The notes under the pieces are model-generated. The model saw only the letters and a program-made list of their open reading frames with translations. It was not told the origin of the DNA and searched no databases. A DNA stretch of 64,000 nt from Lota lota (lineage: Eukaryota > Chordata > Actinopteri > Gadiformes > Lotidae): NCBI GenBank assembly GCA_026745465.1, contig JACYXH010000205.1, forward strand, positions 1,661,501-1,725,500, written 5' to 3'. Made by a program: the position numbers and the translations under genes. Below, piece after piece: positions 350 through 63,200 of the stretch (position 1 is the first letter of the stretch; every line of letters begins with the position of its first letter).

Positions 350-12751
<12,402 letters not shown>

Positions 12752-19651: not shown

Positions 19652-40160
<20,509 letters not shown>

Positions 40161-40640
40161 GGTCAGATAGTTCAGCTACCGTCTCTCTGGTCCAACATTC
40201 AAGAGGACAGCAGAAGTTGTGCTGGGTCTTGTGCTGTGTGTGTGTGCTGTCTGGGACTACTTGGTGAAGTGACACGCTAGCTGTAGCCAACAAGGGCTGT
40301 GCTCCTCTAACACCTGAACCGTGCATCCAGTTCGCTAGCGTTTCATGGCTTCAAACTTGTTCCTCTTGTCTCTTCCGATATCTTCTTTCACACAATATCG
40401 CCAAATACTATACGCATATCAAACTATAGCTGGGGTTAACCTTCAGAAATACTTGCGGATAGATACTTTAACCTAATAAGATGGAAAGAGTAATTTTGTC
40501 GCAGGCTGAAGGAAACCCCGAAGACTGTTTTTATATGAGGAGCCATCTTGCATTTATTACTTCCTCCATGGCAGGCAGAAGCTGATTGGGTACAAGATGC
40601 GAGAAGAGCCAATCACAAAACAGAGCCAGAGTTAGAGCCC
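40161..40640 (-). promoter_or_regulatory. btaf1: btaf1 5' UTR and promoter region
   Basis: Sequence just upstream of the btaf1 start codon. It has a pair of oppositely oriented CCAAT-box motifs (ATTGG at 40584-40588 and CCAAT at 40609-40613) and no clear TATA box. The cc2d2b remnant points away on the other strand, so the 1.4 kb between them may once have been a shared two-way promoter. The transcription start cannot be read from the sequence. Confidence 0.45.
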
Positions 40641-40696
40641 ATACTGTCAATCATAGCGTGTCCCACCTAAATATCATTGTCCATAATCTATACTGA

Positions 40697-40805
<109 letters not shown>

Positions 40806-41960
40806 CAGGCTTATTATCTGCAAAAGTTTAATTTAGGCTTAACGTTACTAGTCTCAGCCTCTTCCGTTAATTTGCATTACGTCAGCATGTGGACAGGATG
40901 GCTCTGTGAGACGAGTATTTACCTAACTCTTATTTACCTATTTTTGTGTAATTTGTTCTAAATCAAGGTCATAAAAAGAACAGAGCAGCCGTTTAAAGAC
41001 GGAGCTGACCGTTGGCCAGAATCAAACGCACGCGCTCACAACGAACGGTTTTCTCTGCCGAAAACCTTTATAATGCTTCTGGTGATTTATGTAACCCTTC
41101 CTTTTCATAACATTTCGGATTAACGTTATATAACAATATGCATACTTTCTATAACATTTTGGAGGATTTGAAGAGACATATGGACAGCTAGATTAAGTCA
41201 GTCCGGGCGAGCGAAAAGAAAACAATTCAAAACACGTGTGACGAAGAGCAAAATGCCAAGAAGACACGTAATAATGAGCCTTTCACATCATTTAAAATTG
41301 AATTAAATTGTTAATCTGTCGTTGTACAAATGTGGATTTCGTTTATTTAAACAGTTTATGAAACCTCCCCCTAGTCGCAGCTTTTAATGCTCCTAAAATG
41401 ATTATAATAAGAAATATGCAGGACTGTGGGGATACATCATTAGTCATACATTTGATGATTTGGAAAAAGAAAATGAAGAACATCAACATAAGGAGGCAAG
41501 AGAGGATTCATCACCTTTCTGCAAGCAATGTCAAAATTTTACTCTTATTATTTTTAGGATGTATCAGCATCTGTTGTTATATATGTATAACAATAAGTTA
41601 TCAATATTGAGGAGAATGCTACGGACTCTGACCCACTCATTCCTGGAGAAATTGTCCAGCAAACTCTACAGCAAACTCATGTTTTTGTGCCAAGCCTTTC
41701 AGCTGGTAAGGTAAAGTTATGGTTGATATACCACCTGGATTTTGGAGCATATTTACTAAGAAATTATAATTTTTCCAACAGTACCCCAAGAACGGCTAGC
41801 ACGAGCTAATCTGAAGCTGTGTTACATAGAAGATGAAGGACTGTATGTGCAGGACAGACCTAAGGTTCCACGGTGGATCGCCAACAAAATGTCAAACCGA
41901 TTCATAGAACAAGGCAAGGTCAACCACGCTAGATTTAATGATAATACACATTTTAATAAT

Positions 41961-42025: not shown

Positions 42026-44194
42026 CTAGACTATGATTAAGTAAGATTTGGTAATGACATATTACTTGAAAATGTCTAATCATAAAATGAGCAGCCAGGC
42101 GCCAGGCGGTCATTTCTAGTTTCTGGTTATAAAACATGATTATGCAATATCTAAAATAAGCACAGAGCAGAGTACTCTGCAATGTTTTGAATACAGCACA
42201 TCTGAGTCAAATATAAGGGTAATCTCTCTAAAGTAGAACAATTAAACTGGTTTCAAAATAGTGTACGGTAATCAAAAATCTAATAAAAGAGGATATGTGT
42301 GTTCTTACTGTTTATCATGGTCAACTATTAAGTCCTGTTAAGGTGAAAAACGTGTATAGTATATGAATGAATGAGTCTGACATGAATGTTCTGTTTACTT
42401 CCTATTACAGGGAGAGTGTTGGTTTGACCAGAGTGGCTGCCTGAAATCTCTGCCTGACCCAGTGCAGAGGAGCTGCTGCTTCGAAGCAGACCACCCTTCT
42501 GCAAGTCACTCTCCTGGCCTTAGTACTGTATACATAGACTGTATACATACACATTTGGAAATGTGCCTTCTGACACAAAACACTGTCCTCTTAATTATTT
42601 ATAACTATTTTTAATGACGGAGCAGAGGGAGGGATTGTTTCTTAAGTTAATATATATATATATATATATATTAAGAGAATATATATAAATAAATAAACTA
42701 CATAAACTTCTGACTGTGTAAATAAACTACATATTACTTAGTAGTGTATACATCATGTATTCACACATAAATGTCCAACTAAGATAACATTTTGATTAAT
42801 AAAATGTAATAATGCCATTATGTAACCTGCTGGCAACCAAAGGTGATTTTCCTTTACTCCGCACAGCCTTCCACAATAGCCTCAAACACATCTAGTAAAT
42901 GTGATGCAGCAATGTGGCAGCTTGACCTTAACCTGGCAGGGCTCATATTCACACATCACCCCCTGTTCAGTAGAGAACATGTGTTGGCACAAAACCTGTT
43001 AGAGATCTATGAACTCTACCGAAACAAACGCCAAATGCCAGATGCCACTACTGCCCTGCAGTGCAAAGTATTGTGTAACACTTAACATATGTGCACTTGT
43101 TTATGCCAACAATTGAAAGAAAAATTGAATATATTTTAAGTTAACACATGAAACTTTTGCCATGCAATATTAGCTAAAGGGATTGGAGAAATCGGAAAGT
43201 GGTGAACGTTATTGGTTCTTGGCAAGAAACCAGTTGGGAACGAAACGAGATAAGGTATGTTTGTTTATATTTTCATTTGGAGTTTTTTTGGATTTTCAAA
43301 AATAGGAGTTATGGATTTATTTAGTCCAACTGCTTGTGTGGATCTATATATTTTTCTGTAGAAATATCTGTGAGCTGAACCAAGAGATAGAAACAGACTA
43401 TCTCTTGAAGAACATATGTAATCGTTGGAACACCAATAAAAAACACAGAGCAGACAATGCATTCACAAGCACAAATGTCAAATTGCAGCTGCACAGGTGC
43501 ACGTTCTTATTCCCCTTTGGTCATCCTTTGGAAATACTTTAGTTCTTAACTCCCTCACTCCCTTCTGAACAGACTCAAAGACATGAGTGTGAACAAATCA
43601 GCAACCCTGAGTGGAAAACCAGAGGACATATTTGTGATAATACATGGGCAAGGAGAAATATTTTTGATGCATTGCATGGGGGTGTACATCAGTGCACCCA
43701 ATTGAAAGATTTGCCTGTTACAGACTGCAGATGATGGGATTTTCCAGCAACCATTAATATGTTTCAAAGAGCACCTGGACCAGGATGAGGAGGCTACTTC
43801 AGGCCCTGTGGAGCAATTGAGGAATCAGGCCAATCCAGCCATCTTGTGTAGTGATCTGATCCCTGTTCTCTCCAGAAGAAAATGTATCTCCCACCACTGA
43901 GCTGCCCCCTGTAAGTCCACCATTAACAGAACAACATTAGTCATTTGTTGAGTCTTGGCAGGAATTTACCCCAGAGCTGAAATTCCATTTGCTTTATTGG
44001 TTTTGACTTTTAGTGACACATTTATTTGGAGATTTGAGTTGCTGCACCACAAGATAACAGTGAACATATTCTACAATGAGAAGCTTGTATCCTTCTAAGA
44101 TCCAGCGTCTTTAGACAGTGACGTCAGAGTCAACATCCAGCAGATCTTTCACATACGCATAATGCCCAGCTCAGAGAATATAATGCTGCAGGTA

Positions 44195-45099
44195 CACAAT
44201 ATAGCCAAAAGTTTTGGGACGCCTGCCTTTACATGCACATGAAGGTTAATGACATCCCATTCTTAATCCGTAGGGTTTAATATGGAGTCTGCCCACCCTT
44301 TGCAGCTATAACAGCTTCAACTCTTCTGGGAATGCTTTCCACAAGGTTTAGGAGTGTGTTTATGGAAATTTTTGACCATTCTTCTTGAAGCGCATTTGTG
44401 AGGTCAGGCACAGATGTTGGACGAGAAGGCCTGGCTCGCAGTCTCCACTCTAATTCATCCCAAAGGTGTTCTATCGGGTTGAGGTCAGGACTCTGTGCAG
44501 GCCAGTCAAGTTCCTCCACACCAAACTCACTCATCCATGTCTTTATGGACCTTGCTTTGTGCACTGGTGCGCAGTCATGTTGGAACAGGAAGGGGCCATC
44601 CCCAAACTGTTCCCACAAAGTTGGGAGCATGAAATTGTCCAAAATGTCTTGGTATGCTGAAGCATTAACAGTTCCTTTCACTGGAACTAAGGGGCCAAGC
44701 CCAACCCCGGAAAAACAACCCCACACCATAATCCCCCCTCCACCAAACTTTACACTTGGCACAATGCAGTCAGGCAAGTACCGTTCTCCTGGCAACCGCC
44801 AAACCCAGACTCGTCCATCGGATTGCCAGACAGAAAAGCGTGATTCGTCACTCTAGAGAACACGTCTCCACTGCTCTAGTGGCGGTTCCATGAAGCTCTC
44901 TACGCACTGTTCTTGAGCTAATCTGAAGACCACACGAAGTTTGGAAGTCTGTAGCTATTGACTCTGCAGAAAGTTGGCGACTTCTGCACAGTCTGCATGC
45001 CAAGGTGCTTGATTTGATACACCTGTGGCCATGGAAGTGTTTGGAACACCTGAATTCAATGATTCTGAGGGGTGTCCCAATACCGTTGGCAATATAGTG
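44195..45099 (-). mobile_element. Tc1-like transposon, internally deleted copy
   Basis: The element is 905 bp with inverted ends beginning CACAATATAGCC (left) and CACTATATTGCC (right, read on the minus strand), flanked by the TA target duplication at 44193-44194 and 45100-45101. The minus strand carries remnants of a Tc1 transposase. An N-terminal helix-turn-helix piece (about 44900-45010) is joined to the catalytic part (44277-44795), which keeps the second Asp (FLFQHDCAP) and the Glu of [11 protein letters not shown]. The motif around the first Asp (SDESRF) is preceded by a stop codon and lies in another frame. Full-length relatives run about 1.2-1.6 kb, so this copy lost inner sequence and cannot code for transposase. 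It lies in the cc2d2b remnant. Confidence 0.92.
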
Positions 45100-48000
45100 T
45101 ATGTGTACACTAAGCACATTTGTAGAGCCCTTCCCAATTGCAGTCTCAAAGGGCTTTGGTCCCCCAGTTTTGATATGTGTATGTAATCACATCAGAAGGG
45201 GATTATTGTCACACTTCTTGGAATTTCAGATTTGTGAGACTTCAGGACAAAAGAGCACTGAGGTGGCCAAGGTATATTTGCCAATCCCAGACAGAAATGT
45301 GCGGTCAAGCTGCACTTCCCTCCTGGAAACTACAGAGTTCAGCAACAAACAAGTAGTCCAGCCTTACTATGAGGGGGTTGGGAGCAGTGAGTAACAGCAA
45401 TTATCATTTATTAAAAAATTTATAAAGCAAAGTAAGCAAAGGCTATTTGTAGATTGTTTTTCTTTCTTTTATCATTAGATGTCACATTTATACTAAATGA
45501 CAAGCAACCAGCATATATATTGACCTCTGGAAGGCTCATCTATGGTCTCTCTTGGGCTGTTGAGGAGTCTGGGTTCCCCATGGCACCCATAGCCATTAAA
45601 CCAAATTTTACCAAGTGAGTAAAAACACCATTATAATATTATCTTTATTTTTTATACAATAATAGCACAATAAGACATTTTGTTGTATCAAAACTCATAT
45701 ACATAGATATTCATAGCCAATGTGTTGGGTTATCTTGGTGTTTTTATGGAGTTAATTAAGTGTTTTATAACTGTATAATCAATCAGTCAATCAATCAATA
45801 CATTCATACTGCATTCAATTCCATGATTTGTACCAGATGTTATGTATAAATGTCTACACAGATGTATCATCCAATTGGATTTATTTTATTTATATTTATA
45901 TTCAGTTCCAATACTTGCCAAGTGTTGAAGAGCCATACAAATGAATTGTTACTAGGCAGGCTTAAGGGCGTAAACTATGATCCCAACCACCCAGCAAACA
46001 CAGAAACCCAAGGGCTCCTCAGGGGTGAGTCTGGCTCCTGACATTTACCAGCATGTAAATGTCAAGTGCTTGCATAATGTTTTCTCTTGTAGGTTTTGTC
46101 TTTTGGTCATTCAGAACTGCAGCCCCTGCTGCTCTACAACTATCCCCATGTATAACAGGAAACAATGTGGGAGCACCAGATATTACATGAACTATGCTAT
46201 ATTTGTTTGGAGTGCAGAAAGCTTGTGAGTGGAGAGATGGAGTAATGGGATGCTTTCACATGTACGCCTGCGAAGAGGAGTTTGACTTCACCACAGAGGA
46301 GAACTTTGATAAGTCCTGGTGGTTTGCGCTCCTCAGGGCCAGGAGTGGTCGTACAGCTCCGCCCAAGGCCATACCGCTGCACGCCAGCGAAATCAAAGAC
46401 TCCATGTTTGCTGTAACATCACATTTTAAGAACTGTACGTTTTTGGTCAATTCTAAATCTAAAAAAAAGAATCTGAATTGCACACACAGCTGGAAAGAAC
46501 TTTAAATGTTAATGTTAAATGTTCTTCCTTGAGAATGTATGACTACGGTACCTTTTTGATTGGATTTGGATTGTGTAAACTAGGATATACTGGCAATGTT
46601 TGTGTCCCTGATTCCAACTATGCCCTTCCTCTCTGATGTTGGAAACAGCAGGGACATGTGGTTCCCCTCAGAGGTACACAAACAATTCACTAGAATAAAC
46701 ATTTACACACTTTTCCAAATATGCTTTGACCAAGATTATGTGTAGAGCAAACTCAGATGTTGACCTCAAAGTTTTTTTTTAAGTACCCAACAGAGAAGAT
46801 ATTTTATTCAGTTGTTGGGTATACCTTTAAGATCACTGTGAACTTTATCTGTTTGATAATCTTTTAGCAATGCCTGGAGCTAGCAGTGGGCAACCATATT
46901 AGCATGGCTGTACTCCTGTGTAACCTCTTCCACTACCAGCAAGTGGAGGCGTGGCTGCTACTGGGAAAATCTGTCCTTGAGGTAGCCTTCTACACTGGTA
47001 TTATGTTGATTATCACTACTGTACTATACTTAGTTCAGGCCCATACAAAACTATACTAGAATCATGTTTTTGTCTTTATTTTTGTGCAAAGTAAAAGCAA
47101 AGTATATTCTACAGAGAGACGGCATACATTCTCTCCAAAAATAACCATCCATACTTGGTTTGGAACCCCAGGGATGGAAACCACTATGACAAATGTGACA
47201 CGCATAGACCTCTGCAGACGGTGGAAGGCCTTGTGAATGGCCAAAATGTAAGGGTAGCCACTCATGCTCATCTGCTGTTTAGCAGTAGTAACACTGATGG
47301 ATGCGTTTTAGGTGTGGTTTAATGTCCAACGCACAAAGCTGGCGTCAGCAATCAACTTTAACTTTTCAGACGCAGGCTCTTAGAAGCCATTATTCCTCAA
47401 TGGTTCTCAAGCTGCAACATCTGGATTGGTAAACCATTTATTGAAGAGTCTGAAAATTTTATCTGCCTTAATTTTAACAAACAAAACTAATATACCTGTG
47501 AAAATGCATCTTCAGGTGAAATACCGGCCTGTTGAAATGGAATTGGTACGTATATAACGTCCAAAGGAGGTATAGGTCTAAAAAATTTCATTCAGCCCTA
47601 GTGCAGTCTACTCTATCAATATCACGTTATGGGTGTATCAGCTGAGAGCACAACGGTGTTACACTCTCAGCCGATTGCAAAACAGCTTAAACAAAACAAT
47701 TCCAAAATACATAAATCACACTTTTTGGTGATTCATAAGAAGGGCTGCTATACTGTGTATGTATCTTCTGTCCCAGGGTGGAGGTCAAGCTGAAGAACAG
47801 CATAATAGAGTGGAGGCTCCCTCACATCACTCGCTAGAACTCCAACTGCTCGGCCGTGCTCAGAGAAGTCCTGGAGCACCTGGAGAGAGCCCGGTCCTCT
47901 GACCCTGTCCTGACAGAGACAAACAAGGTTCTGGAAATCATGACAAACTACAAGGTAATCATAGTTGTATTGAGAGCCAGCTTGTTTTGCTAGTAATCTA

Positions 48001-48605
48001 CTGACCAGTGTAACCTACTTTTTTATCATCTTATCAATGACTTGTCGTGTGATGTGATTTCATGGCTGAGAATGATTGCATTACCCGCTAGGCTTCTATC
48101 CCTATTGAAAATCATTGTTTATTGTGGAATTTTGGATCCCGAATGTTTGTTAGTCCCAATACGAAATCAGGTCTTTGGTTTGTGGGTTAATTAGGTTACT
48201 GGATTCCCTCTTCATATGCCCTACCGAGACATAAACACATTGGTCGAAACAGTCTACAAAACAGGGATCGCACAACAGGGATAGCACAGAGATCCCAGAG
48301 ACCTCGTTTGCCTTGGCCGTGTACATCCACCCCTACCCGAACTACATCCTGTCCACATAGGTCTTCTTAGCTCGGCTGGTCAAACTCCAGCAGGGAGCCT
48401 GTTACGTTGCAGTGGTGTACGACTGAGAGGATATTTGGCTCACCAGTGCACAGAACTAAATGGGAATGTTGATCAGATCCTCAGGATGTTTGATACAAAA
48501 AACATGGATAAATGCATGCACAAATTGTAAGCATTCTCTACTTTTTAATTCATATTGATTTATAGTATATATGAAATGCATGAGACCTTAATTACATGTC
48601 AATTT

Positions 48606-49431
<826 letters not shown>

Positions 49432-51652
49432 TCACCTATCAAAGCAGGGAGCAGCACATGTGTAGTTCAGGCTAACCTGGTAGGCTCGATTCGACATGCT
49501 AGCCTTTGGCTCCAGGTTGGTGGTAGCGGTGGGGATGTGGCTGTGCTGGGGGGCGATAGGAGCCGGCAAGCCGTTGGGCTGGTTGAGGTAGGCCGTGGAC
49601 CGGTGGCTAGGGGCTACTGCTGGTGGGAGGGCCTGCTGGGGGTAGGGCATCACAGGCCGATGGAGGTACTGGGCCAAGGGGGCGGCCTGGCCTGAAGTGT
49701 GGTAGTTGGGAGTTGGACCTAGCTGGTGTTGTTGCTGCTGGTGGCTTGGTGGAGAAACCTTCTGCTTGTTGGCCTCTTTGACATCACCGTCATGTGCACT
49801 AGGAATAAAACAAGAGATGAGAAGTAATAAATACAATCCTGCAAGGAGACAAGACCTACACAGCTTCGGTTGTCCATGTGTTGCACCTGTTGCACTTTTA
49901 CAATGAGTCGATAGTTCATGCTGTAGAATAGAGCTCTAGTACTTGTTGGAGAGGAGAGTGCATTCATTGAAATAAAATACTGCACTAAGACAAGAATTGC
50001 AAATCTTCTCTAGTCCATGTGCTGCACATTCATGTTAACACCTGTTGCAATTTGTAAAACCAGATAAGTCGTTGTCGGCGAGGTGGCTGTATACTCACTC
50101 ATGCCATTATAAAGTATTTTTTATCCCTCTAACTCAAAGAGTTACCGTTAGTGTGAGAGGGTAATCTAACTGGAGACACTCACACCATCAGTTTCTCGGT
50201 GCAGGGCACCAGGTTGTCCCATGTATAGGCCGTGAGGCGCTGCAGACGGGGGGGCCATGTGGGGGACAGGTGGAGTATGAGGCGGGAGGACGCCAGACAC
50301 GCGGCAGCCACCATTGATGGGGCGAAGCACAGAAACACATGGTCTGGAAAGGAAGCAACACAAGCGGGGCCTGAATGCGTGGGGTAAGGGTAAGGTGCAG
50401 CTGTCAAGTTGTCGTGTGCCTGCCAAATCTGTATGGGTTTTGATGGGCGGAATAGTCTGGAGTGTGCCAGCATTTTTAACAGAGCCTGTGTGCGTGCGTG
50501 CAGCCGTTGAAGAAAATGGATTCAAATCTATCAGCCGAGGGGCATGGTAAAAAAGGATTAGGTTCTATTGCATATCTTACACCTAACTATAAATAGGTTT
50601 GTCTCCTGTTTATGTGAAACCTAAACTGATTTGACTCTTTTAAAGAGAAATAGTACACATTTTATTCAAAATAGATTTTGAAGTTGATCGTTATCCTTTC
50701 AGTATAGACTCATCTGTTAAGAGAAAATCTAATAAATTGACCTCATGGGTAGTTATTCTATGCATTTAAATACTTGTGTCACTCTAATGTGCGGTCCCTC
50801 TTCATTCGGTGATAGTGTTGCCAGCTGCTTGCCTTGTAAGGAGACCTCCAGGAAGTAGTCAGCATACTTGGCCAAGTACAGCTTTGTTTTGTCCAGGCAG
50901 CTGATAGGCCACCCGTCATGGAGGTCTCCTTCGTGCACCGCAATGGACAGGTAGTACTCGATGAAATGGGCTGCGGTCGGGAGATACAGGTTCCACTGGA
51001 AGGTCTCCAGCAGGAGCAGCTCCATGTGCAGCAGGCCCTGCTTGGTGAGCACCAGGTTCATGGAGCTCATGCATCCCAGGCTGTTCAGCATCTCCAACTT
51101 GGGCACCCGGTCTTCCCTCTCCTCAAACTTACCTGCAATGAAACAATGAAAAACGCAATCACTAAAGACTTGATATTCAATTGAATTTGTTCTTGTCAAA
51201 GTGTGATGGTGGCATGCATTACTGGACCAAGCACCGAGATGAAAGATGTAAAACATGTAATGAAATACTTACTGGCCAAAAGAAGACATGACAAGGAGAC
51301 CATATGAAGCTGCTGCACAGTGATATCATAGCGGTCCATAAAAAGATCCAACAGGTAAACTGCAAGATGTCTGGCGGCTGGACATAGCCTGAAGCGATTA
51401 CAGACGACCGCTATGAGGTCTGCGAAGTATCTTCTTAAATTCAGTTGAGGAGACTGTCCTTTGAAGGAAGGCAATTTGACCTCCTGTTAACACAATGGGA
51501 GTGAGATATCAGTAATTAATAGCGTGTCTACGATTGAGATAACCACATTGACGGTTTAAAAAATAAGGAATGAGTCTTATTACTTTGTATCGTAAAGCAT
51601 GATAGATATCAGCAGCAAGATGTCCTTTCCACCATTGGTCCTCAAGCTCCAT
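49432..51652 (-). CDS. ccnj: Cyclin J, complete
   Basis: Cyclin J is a conserved cyclin of poorly known partner, linked in flies to oogenesis. Five coding exons: 51584-51652, 51273-51483, 50833-51132, 50184-50343, 49432-49798, summing to 1107 bases (368 aa plus stop). The start [16 protein letters not shown] matches the known cyclin J N-terminus. The cyclin box follows: [38 protein letters not shown], ending in the second fold ([24 protein letters not shown]). The tail is Gln/Pro-rich and ends [10 protein letters not shown]. Exon 3 ends in a GC donor (AAG|GCAAGC) rather than GT; only this join keeps the frame into [11 protein letters not shown]. Position between cc2d2b and znf518a equals human 10q24.1. 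Confidence 0.96.
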
Positions 51653-55393: not shown

Positions 55394-55407
55394 ATACCTG
55401 ATTAGAA

Positions 55408-60243: not shown

Positions 60244-63200
60244 CTAACGTTGTGTGACCACCTGAGGCCTCACTGGATGCTGTAGTTTGGTGATGTCCCT
60301 GGTGTTATTCTGGTTGTCAATCAGCACCAGGGGATTCTGAAGGTGGTTCTCGATGATTCTGGAGACGCTGTTGAAATGCTAAGGGAACAGAGGAGAGCGA
60401 AGTTAGACCCAACCGGGCACATTGTCTTCTTAAAGGACTATCCTATTTTAAATGCTATATGTTGGCGCAAAGACGTTCTTTGGACTTGTGTCTGACTGAA
60501 AGTTGCCAGCACTTACAGGTTAAAATAAATAAAGCTAAGGTAGGCAATTTGGTGAAACCAGCCAGAGTAAGCTAGATTTTGAAAGTATCCAACTGAAAAT
60601 ATCCCACCCTTCCCTTCAGGCCTCCCTCCAAAGCCACTCCCCCAAAACACATGACTAGAACATTAGCTTTAGCAGTCTGCCTAGCCTTGTGGAAGACTCC
60701 GGTCATGCACAATGAGTGCACAGGCAAAGTGTGCGCAGGTAGGTAGGAAGACAGACCGTTAGGGCCTGCAATCATTTAATTCGGGCCTGCATCAGCCACA
60801 AATACTAGATTTTTGTCAGCATTTGATTTATTGATTTCTGTCAGGAAGTAAAAATAAATATGACAAAAAATGCTTCTAAGTAAATTGCCTACCCTAGCTT
60901 TAACAAATCCTTTTCAGGTTAAGTGTAAATTAATTCAGACCAAATATACATTATACACTATACAATACACTATTTGCTAATAGTATTGAAAGGGACCATT
61001 GATCTGGCTATTTATTCAAGATTACATTCTTTCAAGAATGTTGTGGCAGTTATGTGTGTCAGACAAATTTCTTACATAAAAAAAATATCAGTGGTATGAA
61101 CTGAAGAGTAACAAAGAGAAAACAACAGTTATAAAACGTAAGCTAAAACCCTTTAAATGATGAGCAAATTCAACAGTTAGTTCCGACCAAGTAATTTGAT
61201 TGGACGAGAGGCATTCCATGAGTGCTGATATGGAGTATAAGAGCACTGGGACTTTTAACTATACATGTAACACTCCGCTTTACAGGCGTTTCTAATGACC
61301 GTTAATTACATTAAAGACTGTGAGCTGTTAACTCATCAGAACCACGCATGTCACCAAAGCGTCTGTCAACAGACTCTTATTTCAGTGGTTGCACAATAAA
61401 TGAAAACATACAGATAACAGGTAACCTGTAGACCTACACAAAGTAGCAAGCTAGTGTGCAGGAAAATGTTTGTGTTGCTTGGCAACAGTCCAGTCCCAGT
61501 CCTGTTGCAAATTATTCGTGTTGGTGGAGCCAAATAAATGATGAAATAAACAAACAAATGATATTCTGTTGTTGCTTATTACTGCTAACCAAAAAATAGC
61601 GCTTGTAGAGCTGTTGTGTTGGAAACTTGGCCTGCGGCTTCATACCTACTACAGAATCACAGCCGTGCTGATATTCAATATAACAGCACAACCTCAAGTG
61701 TGATATTGCTTAATCAGGAACCTATCATTGCACTGCACAAACCTCCTTTCATAGCTTTTCTTCACAGAGCTGTCCTTTTATGTACCTGGACAATCCAGAA
61801 CAAACCAATCTGTCTTTTAAATATGAACTACTTCCAATTATCCCAAAACCTGTCTTATCATACCTGCTCTCCTTTCTTCTCCCGTCCCAGTGCGTACTGC
61901 TGCGTCGCTTGGATGAACCGCACAGGGATGTTGTACACCTTGCCATTGTAGAGCACCACCAACGTGTAGGGCTGTAGCGCATCCTGCCCAGTACTCTTCC
62001 TCACTAGGAAGGAGCCATCCTGATCCAGGGAAACACACACCTTGAATAATCACATAACTGTTTTTGGTTCATGGCTTGTTATGATCAAATGTTGTAGTTG
62101 AACAACTGTATGACTGCGGTTATGCTGATCTTTATAATATGGTTCTTCTGACCCTATTGGATTGAATCAAGACCTCTTCAGCAGTCTTGCGGCAGCACGT
62201 GTTGGCGTACCAGGGTTGTCTATGAATGTCTGACTTCTGTAAATCAAAAAGAAAATTAATTTCACAACACACTCCTCTATACAATATATGTATTGTGAAA
62301 CCATCAGGTTGTTATGAGAACAGAATTGAGAAATGGGTTAACCTTGTCCATGTCCTGCAATCCATTTGCAACCATCAAACTTAAATCGGCTTGTCCTAAG
62401 ATAGCAGAGAAAGTTACATTTCTGCTATCCACTCCAACGGTCAAAGATGAGTTTTGGGCATTGTCTTAGTGGCATGACCCTAGGAGGTTTGGAGGAGCAT
62501 GTTGTCCATCCGAGAGAAGAGAAGGGTCTATTACTTACTGCGAGAGTTCCATATTTGTGGAAGAGGAATCCTACAGTGTGGGGGAAAACAAAACCAGCGT
62601 AACCTCTCTTTCATACGTCAAAGCAAAGCCAAAATGTCTTTGTTGAACAGCATCACATCAACTCGTTCTGATGGTGCTGCCTCAGAACTACCCAACTTTG
62701 TAGACCAACAAACTATCTGTAATATAACCTGAATCTGCTTACATTGGTTCTCTGAAATCAGCTGTAAAAGCCTTGGGAGGCGGTGGCTGGCCATGGTTCA
62801 TCCTAGGCATTGTTTGACCTATAGGGATAAAGAATTAATTTGGTTTGTTATTATAAAGATATAAAAAACATACTCTCTGGGCAATGGTTTTGGTACTAGT
62901 CGTGGGTCCTTCTCAGTCCTTAGACTTTAGAGAAAATGCACCCAAATGATCAAAACTACTGAAATAGTGGTCATAAACTGTGGTTAATTGATCTCTGGAA
63001 TTAGATTTGAACGTTTTTTTTCATGTGTAGTTTATTTAGAAAATACACAGCAACAAAATCCTAATTCCAGAGATGTATTAGCATTAAAGCTTTTCCTTGT
63101 TTTACATATAAATGAATTGATCAATGATGAGTATGGATTTTGAAGGGTTTATTTAGTCTAACGCTTACTGATATCTGGGTCAAAAGCTTCATATTCATTG

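Follow-up and report, generated by a model that had tools for sequence, protein, structure and literature searches.

What becomes of a splice donor when a transposon lands inside it? This question is raised by a 64,000-nucleotide stretch of Lota lota DNA (contig JACYXH010000205.1; hereafter the window), in which a Tc1-like transposon sits in the donor that follows a cc2d2b-like exon. As set out below, we consider it very probable that a defective Tc1-like element inserted at the TA of a CAG|GTATGTG donor of this decayed gene. The insertion alone alters nothing that is known about Tc1 elements or about splicing; elements of a known kind commonly insert in this manner, and here, in a pseudogene, such an event happens to be unusually clearly visible. 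It illustrates legibly that a GTA donor can receive a TA-targeted transposon in such a way that the GT stays intact and only positions 4-6 are changed. All positions are those of the window.

A Tc1-like element between two TA dinucleotides

The element is 905 bp long and occupies positions 44195-45099. Its outer ends, CACAATATAG...CAATATAGTG, are flanked on each side by a TA that can be read directly from the sequence (44193-44194 and 45100-45101), and they form terminal inverted repeats of 29 bp (44195-44223 on the plus strand and 45071-45099 on the minus strand) that differ from each other by 6 mismatches. Both ends fit a 26-base fish Tc1 terminus with 3 and 2 mismatches, respectively. These were the sole two matches in the 64 kb, and no match was obtained with 100 shuffled windows. 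A second copy of the element was not detected in the window by blastn.

The transposase of the element reads on the minus strand. A fragment of 191 codons between stops (44280-44852) matched DDE_3 in a profile search (E 2.9e-12), and its best match in the PDB was the Sleeping Beauty transposase SB100X (E 1.4e-42). The D, D and E that we take to be the catalytic residues are all present, and the second D is separated from the E by 34 residues, the DD34E spacing that we regard as a Tc1 signature. With a TA target-site duplication, terminal inverted repeats and a DD34E transposase, the element is a Tc1-like transposon of the Tc1/mariner superfamily, in agreement with the initial annotation, which had described a Tc1-like element with a TA duplication.

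The copy at 44195-45099 is defective. The minus-strand transposase fragment is immediately preceded by an in-frame TAG (44853-44855), and what remains of the element up to its end is open in another frame only. The distance from 44280 to the element end is just 820 bases, and the two transposase parts it holds are in different frames; for comparison, the related fish transposase DrTRT has 338 residues. A complete transposase with a DNA-binding N-terminus, which is a mark of an autonomous copy and not of membership of the superfamily, is not present on the element.

Read along the plus strand, the order at the junction is CAG (44189-44191), G (44192), TA (44193-44194), the element, TA (45100-45101) and TGTG. 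The left TA constitutes intron bases 2 and 3, and the TGTG that follows the right TA would correspond to former intron bases 4-7. The initial annotation had claimed that the donor was split between its third and fourth intron bases and that the joined flanks would read gtatgtg. Both claims are borne out, the first one also by the profile register described below: the element separates intron bases 3 and 4, and when it is removed together with one TA the flanks read CAG|GTATGTG. The present donor is CAG|GTACAC (44189-44197, plus strand), in which CAC (44195-44197) is the transposon end. Hence, whereas the insertion was correctly placed inside a splice donor, the donor was not replaced as had been stated. 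CAG|GTA is host sequence that has been retained, and the transposon supplies only positions +4 to +6. The present donor keeps six of the nine consensus bases, and the G at +5 is lost.

The proposed weakening of positions 4-6 is reflected in the donor scores, which are 9.78 bits for the joined flanks versus 4.18 bits for the present CAG|GTACAC. Among the GTs on the plus strand of the window, 0.16% score at least as high as CAG|GTATGTG and 9.1% at least as high as CAG|GTACAC. Judged from the joined flanks, CAG|GTATGTG is the sequence that the former empty site would have had. However, 304 of the 3856 TAs in the window precede three bases that are at least as donor-like as TGT, and therefore the TGT bases give only moderate support to this reconstruction.

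Position of the exon end and expected effect on splicing

The exon end was analyzed using PF15625, the CC2D2A N-terminal C2 profile, in searches run with and without cuts at the proposed splice sites. Exon E5 on the plus strand, whose 5' end is at 44054 or 44014, matched columns 33-83 (E 2.5e-07) when it was cut at 44191, and the next exon (45230-45385, plus strand, full codons) matched columns 84-136 (E 4.9e-08) when it was cut at 45230. Joined to the following exon (45481-45612, plus strand, full codons), which contains the end of the C2 domain, the three exons matched columns 34-175 with an E value of 9.6e-32. No relative of the C2 domain was found in the PDB at E 0.1. Without the cut, the match of E5 continued to column 89 (or 90), that is, 6 or 7 residues inside the element, and scored 35.8 (34.2) bits versus 30.9 bits for the cut version; similarly, the match of the uncut downstream exon began at column 80, four residues ahead of 45230. 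The register was the same in cut and uncut searches, with column 83 on 44189-44191 and column 84 at 45230. The profile thus gives the register only, and the exact cut follows because 44192 is the single GT in the region 44180-44210 and has an AG partner at 45228-45229. The exon end is therefore CAG|GT at 44191/44192, based on register plus GT-AG and not on the profile alone. That this end is misplaced, and that the Tc1 copy simply lies within an intron or exon, is highly improbable: the uncut match does run 6 residues beyond 44191 with a gain of 4.9 bits, but the bases in the overrun are transposon, columns 83 and 84 stay in place, the lone GT lies at that very column and pairs with the AG, and the joined flanks belong to the top 0.16% of GTs.

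In the scenario that we favor, insertion of a defective element at the donor TA, the element would have been mobilized in trans by transposase from another copy. Insertion would have duplicated the TA and, because this is the normal outcome for Tc1, the exon end and the GTA would have stayed while intron bases 4-6 became CAC. As likely outcomes, the present donor site would be used less efficiently, transcripts would run on into the element or be spliced at donor-like sites within it, or the exon would be skipped. Reading past 44191 into the element, a stop is encountered after 16 codons. Six GT sites in the region 44014-45229 outscore the present donor, the best ones being two GAG|gtcagg sites inside the element (6.3 bits). 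With a 5' end at 44054 (138 nucleotides), skipping of E5 would be in frame, and with one at 44014 (178 nucleotides) out of frame. The insertion may have led to loss of function.

Several points weigh against this scenario. The longer and higher-scoring match of uncut E5 means that the profile by itself does not fix the exon end, and the matrix used for scoring donors was one for human donors. In addition, a later exon of the same gene (46614-46673, plus strand) probably ends GAG|GTACAC (junction 46668-46679) and no transposon was recognized there. This second donor, after 46673, scores 3.1 bits. The exon alone gave no Pfam match, but in a joined peptide, for which the join was chosen by us, PF24656 (CEP76 peptidase) covered the final 7 residues of this exon with columns 1-7 and continued with column 8 at the first residue of the exon after it. 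The probable occurrence of the hexamer GTACAC after another exon suggests that it may not be fatal, or else that this other donor has decayed as well. Moreover, related DNA was not found in collections of viral contigs, prokaryote genome contigs, plasmids and phages, which are not expected to hold fish DNA.

Decay of the cc2d2b-like gene and the order of its lesions

The gene contains matches to PF17661, PF15625, PF24656 and PF24652 in this order, which we take to be the make-up of the CC2D2 family; accordingly ordered are the CC2D2-type C2, the CEP76-like peptidase and the C-terminal domains. To detect PF24652, a frame change had to be bridged by X, and the match (25.7 bits, cut-off 22.5) then spanned both sides of it. 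The tentative label of paralogue B rests on the neighbors, a cyclin (Cyclin_N match at 50756-51486, minus strand) and, at 55402, a large exon that was assigned by eye to a zinc-finger gene, together with the human gene order CC2D2B-CCNJ-ZNF518A.

The cc2d2b-like gene has decayed to a pseudogene, with the insertion as one lesion among several. In-frame stops are present on the plus strand at 44096-44098 (TAA, inside exon E5), 47381-47383 (TAG) and 47835-47837 (TAG), and the reading frame changes at 48279-48285 in the last recognized exon, where PF24652 matches on both sides. As for N-terminal exons, no Pfam family was detected at E 0.1 in the three plus-strand frames of region 37901-41802, in which these exons would be expected. 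With its three in-frame stops, a single change of frame and no recognized N-terminal exons, the gene is broken regardless of the Tc1 insertion. The stops were counted over 470 codons (467 sense codons plus the three stops), a count that left out pieces E3, E4, E8 and E9, whose limits are unsettled. A short near-duplication (acagggatcgcacaacagggatagcac) is located at 48261-48287, at the frame change of the last recognized exon.

If the stops accumulated neutrally, they correspond to 0.054 substitutions per site (95% interval 0.011-0.159), and the transposon ends, if they were alike at insertion, to 0.12 per arm (0.04-0.28). These intervals overlap widely and the ends may already have differed in the source copy, so that the estimates do not decide between the two readings of the initial annotation, a first lesion or a later hit. 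Dating the copy against its family was rejected, as blastn detected no other copy in the window and the viral, prokaryote, plasmid and phage collections yielded no relative. Dating based on the stop-free transposase stretch (bound 0.11) was withdrawn, as the absence of stops had been the criterion for selecting this stretch and it is immediately preceded by a TAG.

There is about an even chance that the Tc1 element landed unopposed in a gene that was already dead. The presence of several lesions and the lack of recognized N-terminal exons argue for such a late arrival, and selection should remove insertions in the donors of working genes; on the other hand, there are just three stops in the codons examined and no dating tells the events apart. 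We consider it less likely that Tc1 was the founding lesion, which would have crippled the splicing of a working gene, with the stops and the frame change arising later. The divergence of the transposon ends, which is nominally above that obtained from the stops, would fit this order, but the wide overlap of the two intervals and the possibility that the end mismatches come from the source copy speak against giving it much weight. It is unlikely that the gene tolerated the insertion, with CAG|GTACAC continuing to work as a donor, and died later from other causes. This would be consistent with the retention of CAG|GTA and with the probable GAG|GTACAC junction of another exon, but it has against it the loss of the G at +5, the score of 4.2 bits and the existence of better-scoring donor-like sites inside the element. 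A more far-reaching proposal, which we regard as decidedly doubtful, is that CAG|GTATGTG donors are natural Tc1 targets and that the resulting CAG|GTACAC was a weak but usable and tolerated donor predating the stops; if true, the gene would have survived the insertion for a while with a transposon-built donor. In combination with genomes of related fish, the insertion could help to establish the sequence in which a dying gene acquired its lesions.

Target site, related systems and other features of the window

Without the element, the gene span comprises 5,661 bases with 425 TAs, and six of the ten exon donors scored begin GTA (the split donor being counted once). From these counts we estimate that a random TA insertion in the gene would strike a donor TA about 1-2 times per hundred. 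Tc1 copies are numerous in fish genomes, and donor hits are therefore expected. The site agrees with the Tc1 target consensus CAYATATRTG in 8 of 10 bases, a level that is reached by 19 of the 425 gene TAs, including the site itself. For the zebrafish element ZB, the preferred target is ATATATAT, with insertion at its central TA, and a similar preference is described for Sleeping Beauty (SB) and Bari (PMC7913693). Compared with ATATATAT, the site AGGTATGT matches in 5 of 8 bases, as do or better 34% of the 425 gene TAs. The idea of a target hot spot was rejected, the site being ordinary by the published ATATATAT.

Like the fish Tc1-like elements Sleeping Beauty and ZB, the element has a TA duplication, inverted ends and a DDE_3 transposase with DD34E spacing, but unlike the studied fish elements the present copy is defective and measures 905 bp. 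Rushforth and Anderson are said to have found, in 1996, that Tc1 insertions of Caenorhabditis elegans are spliced out of mRNA. The cc2d2b-like gene resembles such cases in that Tc1 lies in a gene whose splicing was perhaps rerouted through cryptic sites. In C. elegans dpy-19(unk88), an exonic Tc1 is reported to be removed from the mRNA, likely via a cryptic site (PMC12405876). Introners are intron-creating transposons, and in some of them the target duplication provides a splice site; for vertebrates, the same paper finds no pattern of gain of such elements (PMC9860276). As with Introners, the target duplication here furnishes part of a splice donor. The present case differs from dpy-19(unk88) in that the element is in a donor and not in an exon, and from Introners in that the intron pre-existed and was lengthened. 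A literature search at the level of listings retrieved nothing published on this insertion, nor on a loss of cc2d2b in fish.

Other repeated sequences were observed elsewhere in the window. An 86-bp palindrome at 37350-37435, near-perfect (93%) and located upstream of what is left of the gene, is perhaps a small mobile element. Regions 6448-7469 and 61168-61549 are 80% and 88% alike to their inverted complement at the opposite window end, and probably constitute a dispersed repeat. Finally, the region 1103-1337 is a tandem repeat with diverged copies spaced ∼38-39 bp apart (offsets 39, 77, 114 and 152).

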